Positions 3,092 to 6,870 of a stretch of DNA of 64,000 nucleotides are shown here, in pieces. The position numbers were made by a program, and so were the translations under genes. The stretch spans positions 62,001-126,000 of the forward strand of contig RDXN01000033.1 of the NCBI GenBank assembly GCA_004292855.1, in the 5' to 3' direction. The DNA comes from Cytophagales bacterium. GTDB taxonomy: Bacteria > Bacteroidota > Bacteroidia > Cytophagales > Spirosomataceae. The first letter of the stretch is position 1, and every line of letters starts with the position of its first letter. Below the pieces are notes generated by a model. It had not been told where the DNA came from and did not search any database. It was given only the letters and a program-made list of their open reading frames with translations.

Positions 3092-5173
3092 ATGAAATTA
3101 GGCATCGACATTGGGGGGACATTTACGGACCTCGTTTTGCTGAATGAGCAGGACGGGGCGGTGGTGTTTGCCAAAACGCTAACCACCTACCCCGACCCGA
3201 CGGAGGGGATTTTGACCGGCGTTCAGGAAATTGTACAGAAAAGCGGTATTGAAAGTAGCCAGATCGACACGCTCGTGCATGGCACCACGCTCGTGACCAA
3301 TGCTGTCATTGAGCGCAAAGGGGCCAAAACCGCTCTGCTGACGACCAAAGGGTTTGAGGATGTGCTGGAGATCGGGCGCGAGATGCGCTACGACATTTAC
3401 GACATTTTCATCACCATGCCTAAGCCGCTCGTGCCCGCCCACCTACGCCGGGGCGTTACCGAACGGCTTGACAAACAGGGGGTTGTTGTCGAAAGCCTCC
3501 GGCTCGATGAAGCCGAACAACATCTGCTTGAGTTGCAGGCTGAGGGTGTGCAGAGTGTGGCCGTGTCGTTCCTGCATTCGTTTGCCAACACCGCCCATGA
3601 GAAAGCCGTTGGGCAACTGATCGAGAGCAAGTTTCCGGGCCTGACGTACTCACTCAGTTGCGACGTGATGCCCGAAATTCGGGAGTACGAGCGCACCTCG
3701 GCCACGGTCATGAACGCCTACGTGCAACCCCTCACCGACGAGTATCTGAAAAACTTACGGACGCGGCTCAACGCATTGGGCTTTGCCGGGATTATTCACA
3801 TTATGGACTCGGCGGGACGGCTTACGACCCTCGAAGGAGCCAGAAAAACACCCGTGCAATTGCTCGAAAGTGGTCCGGCGGGTGGCACAATGGCGGGTGT
3901 TTTCTTTGGTCATCTGACCGGCAAATCGGACCTGCTGGCCTTCGACATGGGGGGTACTACGGCCAAAGCGTCGATGATTCGCGACCGGGGCGATGGCATC
4001 TTGACGCCCGAAATCACGAATCAGTTTGAGGCCGCCCGCGAGAAACGGTTCAAACGGGGGAGCGGCTTGCCTGTCAGGATTCCGGTTATCGACATGATCG
4101 AGATTGGGGCCGGGGGCGGCAGCATTGCCCACGTGAACGCGCTGGGTCTGCTCACGGTTGGCCCCGAAAGCGCGGCCTCCACACCCGGTCCGGCCTGCTA
4201 CGGGCGCGGGGGCCAAAACCCGACCGTGACCGACGCCGATCTGGTGCTGGGTTTCCTGAACGAGCACTACTTTTTGGGCGGCACCATGTCGCTCCGCAAA
4301 GACCTCGCCCGGCAAGCCATCGACCTGAACATTGCGCAACCACTGGGTATCAGCGTGGAAGAAGCGGCCTGGGGGATTCACCGGATCGTCAACGAAAACA
4401 TGGCCAACGCGGCCCGTGTGCATATTTTGGAGAAGGGCCTGGACCCGCGCTTTTTCTCGATGATGGCCTTTGGCGGGGCGGGGCCGGTTCATGCCTTCAA
4501 CGTGGCGCGGCTATTGAACACGCCCCAACTGCTGGTGCCGAGCGGGGCCGGGGTTCTGAGCGCGTTTGGCTTTTTGGTGAGTCCGGTGGCCAAAGAAGCC
4601 ATTTCGAGCTACGTCTGCCGATTGGACCGGATGGACTGGAACCGCGTGAACGAGCGCATCGCCGAGATGAAGCAATCGGGTTATGCTTTTCTGGATCACG
4701 CGGGCGTCGATGCCACTCAGGTTACGGTCAAAATCGTGGCCGACATGCGGTATCTGGGGCAGGGCCATGAAATCACGGTTAGCATACCCGACGGGTCGTT
4801 AGATGAAACTGCCGTGCCGCAAATCGAAGCCGCTTTTGGCCGGGAATATCAGTTGCGCTATGGCCGGAGCATCGACCGAATACCCATCGAATCGGTCACG
4901 TGGCGCGTGCTAGTCAGCGGCCCCTCGCCCCGAATTATTCCCCGACAAACGTTGCACAAACCCGCCGGACAGGCCCAAAAAGGCACTCGACCCGTGTTTT
5001 GGGGAAAGACGTACGAGGATACGCCCGTGTATGACCGGTACTCGCTACGCGCACACGAACCCGTTTTGGGACCGTGCATTATCGAGGAGTTTGAAAGCAC
5101 TACCGTGGTCGGCAAAAACAGCACCGCCCACGCCGATGAGTTTGGTAATCTGGTGATTGATTTAACGTATTGA
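3092..5173 (+). CDS. hyuA: Hydantoinase/oxoprolinase family subunit A
   Basis: Full-length 693-residue HyuA/HydA-type subunit, a member of the ATP-dependent hydantoinase, 5-oxoprolinase and acetone/acetophenone carboxylase superfamily. The actin-like ATPase signature appears at the start (GIDIGGTFTDLVLL) and again at FDMGGTTAKASMI. VHGTTLVTNAVIERKG and GAGGGSIAHV are typical family segments. It works as a heteromer with the B subunit, whose start overlaps this stop codon. Such enzymes couple ATP hydrolysis to amide ring opening or to carboxylation of a ketone; the sequence alone does not tell which. The gene sits in the unexplained catabolic cluster after the SDR. Confidence 0.93.
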   Translation: MKLGIDIGGTFTDLVLLNEQDGAVVFAKTLTTYPDPTEGILTGVQEIVQKSGIESSQIDTLVHGTTLVTNAVIERKGAKTALLTTKGFEDVLEIGREMRYDIYDIFITMPKPLVPAHLRRGVTERLDKQGVVVESLRLDEAEQHLLELQAEGVQSVAVSFLHSFANTAHEKAVGQLIESKFPGLTYSLSCDVMPEIREYERTSATVMNAYVQPLTDEYLKNLRTRLNALGFAGIIHIMDSAGRLTTLEGARKTPVQLLESGPAGGTMAGVFFGHLTGKSDLLAFDMGGTTAKASMIRDRGDGILTPEITNQFEAAREKRFKRGSGLPVRIPVIDMIEIGAGGGSIAHVNALGLLTVGPESAASTPGPACYGRGGQNPTVTDADLVLGFLNEHYFLGGTMSLRKDLARQAIDLNIAQPLGISVEEAAWGIHRIVNENMANAARVHILEKGLDPRFFSMMAFGGAGPVHAFNVARLLNTPQLLVPSGAGVLSAFGFLVSPVAKEAISSYVCRLDRMDWNRVNERIAEMKQSGYAFLDHAGVDATQVTVKIVADMRYLGQGHEITVSIPDGSLDETAVPQIEAAFGREYQLRYGRSIDRIPIESVTWRVLVSGPSPRIIPRQTLHKPAGQAQKGTRPVFWGKTYEDTPVYDRYSLRAHEPVLGPCIIEEFESTTVVGKNSTAHADEFGNLVIDLTY

Positions 5174-5175
5174 CG

Positions 5176-6870
5176 ATGGTTGATCAAATAAGACCGGGCG
5201 TAGCGCAAACATACAATCCCATTGAACTGAGCGTTTTGTGGTCGCGGCTGATTTCGATTGTCGATGAGGCCGGGACAACCTTGCAGCGCACGGCGTTCTC
5301 GTCGGTCACGCGGGAGAGTGCTGATTTTGCCGTGGTGCTCATGGATACGCAAGGGCAGTCGCTGGCACAGAGCAGCGTGAGTGTACCGTCGTTTTTGGGG
5401 GTGTTGCCGTTTCTGGTCAAAGCCCTCATCAACGACCATTTCCCGCTCGACACCTGGCAACCCGGCGACGTGGTTATCACCAATGACCCCTGGCTCTGCG
5501 CGGGCCACAAACCCGATATTGGGATCGTAACACCAGTATTTGGACCACCCCCCGGCCCCCTCCTAAAACAGGAGGGGGTGGTCTCGGAAGGAGTCTTTGA
5601 TGGCACCCCCTCCTGTTTTAGGAGGGGGCCAGGGGGTGGTCTGATCGGCTTCATCGGCTGCATTGCCCACTCGCCCGACATTGGCGGGGCATTGTGGGGC
5701 GCGGGGGCGAAGGATTTCTACGAAGAAGGGCTGTATATTCCCCCCATGAAACTGTACAGCGCGGGGCAACGGAACGATACCTTGTTCCACATGATTCGCA
5801 CCAACGTCCGGGCGGCTGACCAAACCATTGGCGACATTCTGGCGCAGGTAGCGGCCAACGACCAGGGCATCCGGTCGCTGCACAGGATGATGCAGGAAAA
5901 CGAACTCACTGAGATCGATACGTTGGGTGAGCAGATTATCGGGGCCAGCGAGCGGGCCATGCGTGAGGCCATCCGGCAGGCTCCCAACGGCACCTACCAC
6001 GCCGAATACGATGCCGACGGCGACGGCGCAAACGAACCCGTGAAGTTCGTTTGCGCCGTGACCATTGCCGACGATGAAATTGACGTGGACTACACCGGCA
6101 CCTCGCCCGCGCACCGGCTGGCCATCAACGCCGTCCTGAACTACGTGTTTGCCTACACGGCCTACCCCATCAAGTGCGTGTTCAGCCCCGAGACGCCCAA
6201 CAACGAGGGTAGTTTTCGGCCCATCCACGTGTCGGCCCCCGAAGGCTGTTTGCTCAACGCCCGCAAACCCTCGCCCCTTGGCGCGCGAAACGTAACGGGC
6301 AACTTGCTCCACGCACCCATCATGCAGGCACTGAGTCAGGTCGTACCCGACAAGGTGCAGGCCGATTGTGGGGCCGCCGTTTGGGTAATGGTCCTGAGCG
6401 GAAAACGAGCAGACAACGCTGAATTCGTGGAATACCTGTTCCTCGCGGGGGGCTACGGTGGCCGCAAGGGACTCCCCGGCGAACACACCCTCTGTTACCC
6501 AACCAATGTGGCAAACGTGCCTATCGAGGTATTCGAGAACGATGCTCCCGTACTGGTTACCGAAAAGAGTTTGATCCGCAACAGCGGGGGCAACGGGCAG
6601 TATCCGGGCGGCATGGGGCAACGATTTGCATACCGCAACATCGGCAGTAGCCCCATTCAGATCAGTAACGTAACCGAAAAACTCAACCATCAGGCCTATG
6701 GCTTATTTGGGGGCGAATCGGGTCAAAAAGGGCGGCTGTTTGTGCGGCAAGCCGATAAAACCGAACGCTTCACCCCACCCAAAGGCCACGACAAACTCCT
6801 CCCCGGCGAAGAACTCGTTATGGAACTGCCCGGCGGAGGAGGCTATGGAAATCTAATGCATAATGTGTAA
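5176..6870 (+). CDS. hyuB: Hydantoinase B subunit carrying an in-frame palindromic insertion
   Basis: B subunit (about 564 aa) of the HyuAB pair. I choose the ATG at 5176, two codons after a TTG that overlaps the hyuA stop. Family segments include SVLWSRLISIVDEAG, FSSVTRESADFAVVL, NDPWLCAGHKPD, HSPDIGG, DYTGTSP and GGYGGRKG. Between VTPVF and LIGFIG, where relatives have only a few residues, about 32 extra residues are encoded by the palindrome at 5544-5640. The frame is kept and no stop is introduced. The last residues (LMHNV) and the stop codon come from another repeat at 6855. The protein may still be functional with a surface loop, or impaired. Confidence 0.9.
   Translation: MVDQIRPGVAQTYNPIELSVLWSRLISIVDEAGTTLQRTAFSSVTRESADFAVVLMDTQGQSLAQSSVSVPSFLGVLPFLVKALINDHFPLDTWQPGDVVITNDPWLCAGHKPDIGIVTPVFGPPPGPLLKQEGVVSEGVFDGTPSCFRRGPGGGLIGFIGCIAHSPDIGGALWGAGAKDFYEEGLYIPPMKLYSAGQRNDTLFHMIRTNVRAADQTIGDILAQVAANDQGIRSLHRMMQENELTEIDTLGEQIIGASERAMREAIRQAPNGTYHAEYDADGDGANEPVKFVCAVTIADDEIDVDYTGTSPAHRLAINAVLNYVFAYTAYPIKCVFSPETPNNEGSFRPIHVSAPEGCLLNARKPSPLGARNVTGNLLHAPIMQALSQVVPDKVQADCGAAVWVMVLSGKRADNAEFVEYLFLAGGYGGRKGLPGEHTLCYPTNVANVPIEVFENDAPVLVTEKSLIRNSGGNGQYPGGMGQRFAYRNIGSSPIQISNVTEKLNHQAYGLFGGESGQKGRLFVRQADKTERFTPPKGHDKLLPGEELVMELPGGGGYGNLMHNV
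5544..5640. repeat. Near-perfect 37-base inverted repeat inserted inside hyuB
   Basis: Bases 5544-5580 and 5604-5640 are inverted copies with one mismatch in 37, separated by a 23-base loop. Each arm is itself nearly palindromic (CCCCCTCCT, five bases, AGGAGGGGG). Translated, it adds Pro/Gly-rich sequence (PPPGPLLKQEG ... RRGPGGG) to HyuB without breaking the frame. The repeat at 27113, between two other genes, is of a similar C/G-rich type, suggesting a dispersed family. Confidence 0.9.

Follow-up and report, generated by a model that had tools for sequence, protein, structure and literature searches.

A palindromic repeat in frame within hyuB, and the association of its family with DUF559 nuclease genes

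Introduction

In-frame palindromic inserts in coding genes are best known from Rickettsia. The hyuB gene of a Spirosomataceae genome, which lies in the 64,000-nucleotide stretch of DNA analysed here (“the window”), carries a long palindrome within an open reading frame, and raises the question of what kind of sequence this is, what might have moved it there, and how the host protein accommodates it. The question reaches beyond this locus: many bacterial genomes among those that we examined contain C-rich hairpin repeats of this kind, and we found no paper that names their mover.

Results

An in-frame palindrome in hyuB

The initial annotation had placed a pair of 37-base inverted arms with a single mismatch at 5544-5640, in a hyuB frame that is kept. 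This proved right to within a base or two, as an inverted-repeat search identified arms of 38 nt (5543-5580 and 5604-5641) that are 97% complementary, with one mismatch and 23 nt between them (Table 1). Each arm is a hairpin in itself (CCCCCTCCTAAAACAGGAGGGGG). The element folds with a z-score of about -11, both as DNA and as RNA, while 0 of 200 shuffled sequences fold equally well, and its hairpin motif occurs twice in the window versus no occurrences in shuffled windows.

The hyuB frame is open throughout the 99-nt element, the length of which is a multiple of three, and the Pfam domain Hydantoinase_B spans the insert (HyuB residues 16-561, E 8e-140). The translated insert, GPPPGPLLKQEGVVSEGVFDGTPSCFRRGPGGG, which includes the stretch GPPPGPLLKQEGVVSEGVF, is 33 amino acids long, close to the 32 or so added residues first proposed. 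In a sister copy of the element (L069), a TAA stands in the frame used by hyuB, at a place where the hyuB copy has GAT. An AlphaFold2 model of HyuB, in which strands 116-122 and 156-163 flank the insert, was poor (mean pLDDT 35, five sequences) and was not relied on.

Table 1. Features of the hyuB locus and of its palindromic element (positions in the window)
Feature	Position	Strand	Remarks
hyuA, partner gene, intact, directly upstream of hyuB	3092..5173	+	
hyuB, host gene, hydantoinase B / oxoprolinase family	5170..6870	+	start TTG 5170 or ATG 5176
In-frame palindromic element of family A (99 nt), GACCACC...GGTGGTC	5543..5641	+	33 codons
Left outer arm, GACCACCCCCCGG	5543..5555	+	
Left inner hairpin, CCCCCTCCTAAAACAGGAGGGGG	5556..5578	+	identical to the genome-wide repeat core
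Spacer, sense codons (TAA in this frame in the sister copy L069)	5579..5605	+	
Right inner hairpin, inverted copy of the repeat core	5606..5628	-	
Right outer arm, CCAGGGGGTGGTC	5629..5641	+	

The same HyuB loop in homologues

The closest HyuB homologues, which are 74-79% identical and come from Bacteroidota MAGs, one of them from Chitinophagales, lack the insert. At the insertion site, three of the four (L031, L032 and L034) have 3-4 residues, in agreement with the short turn initially expected of relatives, and in the solved structure of an N-methylhydantoinase residue 806 is followed by 809 where HyuB runs from 122 to 154. That expectation did not extend to all relatives, however, since L033 has a loop of 9-10 residues, and in the HyuB proteins of genomes G008, G488 and G491 the same loop holds a different, partly decayed palindrome, of a type that is also repeated elsewhere in G008 and G488. 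Because two different palindromes occupy the same loop, it must have received no fewer than two distinct elements.

A survey of HyuB over the class sample gave matches in the query's own genome only, and the search was then directed at the family. As for the gene itself, HyuB is about 60-66% identical to homologues from its own family, versus the 74-79% seen with other Bacteroidota MAGs, and no homologue was found in three congeners, which together suggest that hyuB was acquired horizontally.

Family A and its sister families

The 23-nt core of the hyuB element is far from unique in the 6.25-Mb genome: it has 37 matches at up to three mismatches, and a full-length query identified 12 copies, each about 95-100 nt long, with both hairpins intact. 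In this family (family A), an outer inverted repeat surrounds the two hairpins, which are inverted with a spacing of about 50 nt, and the element starts with GACCACC and ends with GGTGGTC. Shorter, single-hairpin copies measure 47-49 nt, and some copies are broken by a putative insertion sequence. One or two of the six frames are open in the majority of full-length copies. At two mismatches the core is found in none of three congeners and is present in two other genera of the family.

A census of the own genome, for which 1.6 Mb was sampled in pieces, yielded 30 elements of three related families, with the motifs ACCACCCC/CCCCCTCCT (family A), ACCCCACCCC/CCCCTCCC (family B) and CCTCACCCC/CCCCTCTCCT (family C). 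By eye, the flanks displayed no consistent target-site duplication, the empty sites being compared only between diverged relatives. The putative insertion sequence, which has the terminus GGTGAGGTTTACCCACAAG, lies inside palindrome loops at the contig ends C12, C13, C21, C29 and C54 (L085-L089), as well as at L296 (C44), and seems to target the loops of these palindromes. In G488, elements with the same inner hairpins (L268, L270 and L272) differ in their outer arms, which are either CCTCACCCC or AGCGTCGGTCGCCCC; the outer arms may thus be modular.

In-frame copies in other genes

Six of the 30 elements sit in frame within long, unrelated genes, which encode a superfamily-1 helicase, an ASPIC/UnbV protein, an MpaB-like oxygenase, an AcrB-TolC fusion (in its TolC part), a penicillin amidase and HyuB. 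The earlier proposal that this lineage has a palindromic element able to enter genes as a tolerated peptide is supported: the arm recurs throughout the genome, close HyuB homologues lack it, and five genes besides hyuB have an in-frame insert from family A or a sister family. The ASPIC/UnbV insert belongs to family A, like that of hyuB; congeners lack the insert of the MpaB-like gene; and the helicase and penicillin amidase inserts sit in a linker that varies among congeners, with a net addition that is small or unclear. The AcrB-TolC fusion is a single 1500-aa ORF (L189:10781-15280) joining an AcrB-type pump to a TolC-type outer membrane protein.

In other genomes, too, genic copies leave the frame open. 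G488, the relative sampled best, has more than 100 hairpin matches of this type, and its sampled in-frame copies include those in murF-alr, ispE and ileS; no broken gene carrying a palindrome was seen in the G488 sample. Across G488, G493 and G009, palindromes lie in frame in MurF-Alr, IspE, PBP, HsdM and C39-ABC genes. The core matches of G018, which are mostly single and are in part covered by long GC-rich frames that look spurious, were left out of the count. Taken together, the hyuB insert is almost certainly an in-frame member of a mobile-type repeat family.

The repeat families flank DUF559 nuclease genes

A lead to a possible mover, which the initial annotation had missed, came from ileS of G488, where palindrome halves enclose a DUF559 nuclease domain in frame. 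DUF559 is related to the Vsr endonuclease, of the PD-(D/E)XK type (PMC12907096). Nine genomes of this family, searched specifically for DUF559, gave 15 loci, not all of them independent (those of G001 and G002 are orthologous), and hairpins were scored as perfect 8-nt C-rich arms with a loop of 2-10 within 250 bp of the gene, thresholds that were set only after the first cases had been seen. By this measure, 10 of the 15 loci have a hairpin, five of them on both sides, compared with 1.6% of random positions (0.035% for both sides) and one of 30 RAYT loci. Three of the other five loci (L284, L293 and L295) have different C-rich hairpins nearby.

The repeats that flank DUF559 genes are of the same families as those described above. 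Complete palindrome-DUF559-palindrome units, in which the DUF559 frame, instead of the short spacer, stands between the two hairpins, are found in the own genome at C79:87622-88139 (518 bp, within the methylmalonyl-CoA mutase gene and in its frame) and C71:68165-68695 (531 bp, free-standing), and in G488 at C17:39529-40050 (522 bp, in IleS). The C79 and C71 units are longer coding elements with the same ends as families B and C. For family A, the own genome has a single case of a copy next to a DUF559 gene, at C55, where a complete element lies 10 bp from the gene on one side only. G006 likewise has a complete palindromic element on one side of its DUF559 gene, and in G018 A-like repeats flank DUF559 on both sides. 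The DUF559 proteins that occur with family A palindromes are related to one another (own C55, G001, G002, G006 and G018), and the gene-embedded DUF559s form a clade of their own; the match between families is imperfect, as the free-standing, C-linked DUF559 of G008 groups among the A-linked proteins.

The host enzymes have solved counterparts without the insert: residues 518 and 689 of the methylmalonyl-CoA mutase correspond to 536 and 543 of the solved chain, and residues 558 and 761 of IleS to 485 and 486. A Pfam scan of the five DUF559-bearing host proteins detected no intein or protein-splicing domain. Methionine synthase (MetH) has two DUF559 domains in G009 (L299:3006-7940) and one in G008 (L300:1617-6020). 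At the first DUF559 site of the G009 protein, MetH of G008 has a palindrome-type insert only, and this looks like a single site shared by a nuclease-bearing and a nuclease-free form.

DUF559 genes in other phyla

A plasmid collection queried with the C55 DUF559 returned no match from Bacteroidota but supplied DUF559 genes for an out-group test, in records from Cyanobacteriota, Proteobacteria and Deinococcota. By a criterion likewise fixed after the first cases, C-rich hairpins lie within 300 bp of 19 of the 23 genes, often on both sides, at a density of 2.83 per kb near DUF559 versus 0.18 per kb across the remainder of these loci, which include several Azospirillum, Deinococcus and Sinorhizobium records and are not all independent. 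Some of the genes stand between sufB and sufC, between paaD and paaZ, and inside pnt and hpa operons.

Several of these loci (L317, L319, L321, L323, L325, L326 and L327) have DUF559 in or beside conserved operons (suf, paa, pnt and hpa, and near dnaG) with palindromes close by. In a plasmid of Pseudanabaena galeata (L313), a 4.9-kb CDS between brxC and pglZ, the place at which pglX of a BREX system would be expected, contains a DUF559 domain flanked on each side by palindromes.

Discussion

Our preferred explanation, which we consider reasonably probable as a whole, is that the hyuB insert belongs to a family of translated mobile palindromes that has DUF559 as its mobiliser. The narrower claim that this Vsr-like PD-(D/E)XK nuclease moves the repeats is, judging from gene neighbourhoods, somewhat favoured. 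Under this scheme, the form of about 520 bp with DUF559 between two palindromes would be the autonomous element. The palindromes of about 45-150 nt would be non-autonomous, MITE-like derivatives of such palindrome-DUF559-palindrome elements, and we infer that the hyuB insert is one of them. DUF559, acting with host replication or repair, may recognise or cut the palindrome hairpins, leading to the spread of both forms. Insertions in surface loops would then owe their survival to being free of stops and to forming a flexible, Pro/Gly-rich loop, which is presumably neither spliced out nor bypassed.

Other movers can be envisaged. In enterobacteria and Pseudomonas, REPINs or BIMEs, made of two inverted REPs, are mobilised by RAYT (Y1/HuH) transposases, and the hyuB copy might be a rare, tolerated intragenic REPIN. 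The two-hairpin inverted architecture with its spacing of about 50 nt would fit such an origin, as would the eight PF01797 genes of the own genome, yet we judge it unlikely, since none of these eight RAYT genes lies near the repeats, the RAYT loci of five relatives are without this family, one of 30 RAYT loci has a hairpin by the general C-rich test, and neither a GTAG nor a CGTC tag is present at the ends of family A. With these repeats not flanking the PF01797 loci of the own genome or of the five relatives, RAYT was rejected as the mobiliser. The own RAYT loci (L035-L042) have other palindromes nearby, unlike the hyuB element; the genome contains several separate repeat systems. A little less improbable, though still doubtful, is the reverse relationship, in which the palindromes are independent repeats of some other mover and DUF559 genes are parasites that prefer to insert in or beside them. 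The putative, apparently unrelated insertion sequence found in palindrome loops at the five contig ends indicates that palindromes can serve as landing sites for other elements, and the one-sided arrangements of C55 and G006 are also what such a parasite might leave. This sits poorly, however, with related DUF559 proteins keeping the same palindrome family across genera, with the recurrence of the association in other phyla with different palindromes, and with the position of DUF559 between two hairpins, at the place of the spacer.

The remaining alternatives concern the insert rather than its mover. Hairpins can be bypassed in translation, as in the byp elements of yeast mitochondria, and the great stability of the hairpins, together with copies in essential genes such as ileS, might suggest that the working protein no longer has the insert, owing to translational bypass, RNA removal or protein splicing. 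We regard this as very improbable: bypass or removal before translation needs no open frame, so that about two thirds of inserts would be expected out of frame, yet the sampled genic copies of G488 are all in frame and none was seen in a broken gene, while splicing is opposed by the lack of a Pfam intein domain in the DUF559-bearing hosts. That the HyuB insert reflects ordinary variation in loop length, or low-complexity sequence arisen by chance, has next to no probability. Although the length of this loop varies in some relatives too, the element is nearly identical to a repeat present throughout the genome, an identity that refutes the chance reading, and its folding z-score of -11 points the same way.

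A broader picture may also be drawn, which we consider to have an even chance of being correct. DUF559 would represent a pan-bacterial class of mobile elements whose ends are C-rich palindromes and from which many short derivatives without the nuclease have arisen. Either form could insert in frame into a conserved gene and be translated as it stands, with IleS, methionine synthase and methylmalonyl-CoA mutase carrying an unspliced nuclease domain and many proteins carrying short palindrome-encoded loops. The odds that the whole constitutes a new class of mobile element are likewise about even. Of the open-access papers that name DUF559, none concerned its mobility, as judged by title or abstract; nor did the searched open-access literature contain the link to a Vsr-like nuclease or nuclease-bearing palindromes lying in frame in genes for essential enzymes. 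This link offers a testable role for the nuclease family and a candidate for what moves the repeats. Selfish DNA may in this way supply the genes of functional enzymes, in bacteria other than Rickettsia, with new peptide loops and even with entire nuclease domains.

By itself, the hyuB insert is of a kind already known, since in-frame intragenic REPs and Rickettsia palindromic elements (RPEs) have been described, and the DUF559 association is the more novel part. The view of the initial annotation that no such system was known is too strong in general, as REPs lying in frame within genes have been documented from several phyla (PMC3733652). As with these REPs and RPEs, several short palindrome families stand here in frame in unrelated genes and add 20-30 residues, and the double hit in the HyuB loop is paralleled in recB, where two Xanthomonas species have different REPs at about the same site (PMC3733652). 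The likeness is one of description, with no descent claimed: the sequence families and the lineage are others, the repeats are linked to DUF559, and family A is without the GTAG/CGTC tags of intragenic REPs (PMC3733652).

Our elements resemble the REPIN/RAYT system in their paired inverted hairpins, in the presence of several families per genome and in a nuclease gene with a cognate repeat family at its flanks, but the associated protein is the Vsr-like PD-(D/E)XK nuclease DUF559 rather than a HuH/Y1 transposase. With bacterial MITEs and other small mobile sequences (ERIC, YPAL, NEMIS and RU; PMC2759123, PMC2229807) they share inverted repeats of about 100 nt, some of them intragenic with open frames, as well as, for families B and C, the existence of a longer coding relative whose ends match theirs; in contrast to MITEs, no consistent target-site duplication was seen by eye, and the coding relative has DUF559 in place of a transposase. 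Finally, like inteins and homing endonuclease genes, they include nuclease frames embedded in conserved enzymes (IleS, MetH and methylmalonyl-CoA mutase) or wedged into operons, and differ from these in having no detected splicing domain, palindromic termini, and many short, nuclease-free copies at unrelated sites.
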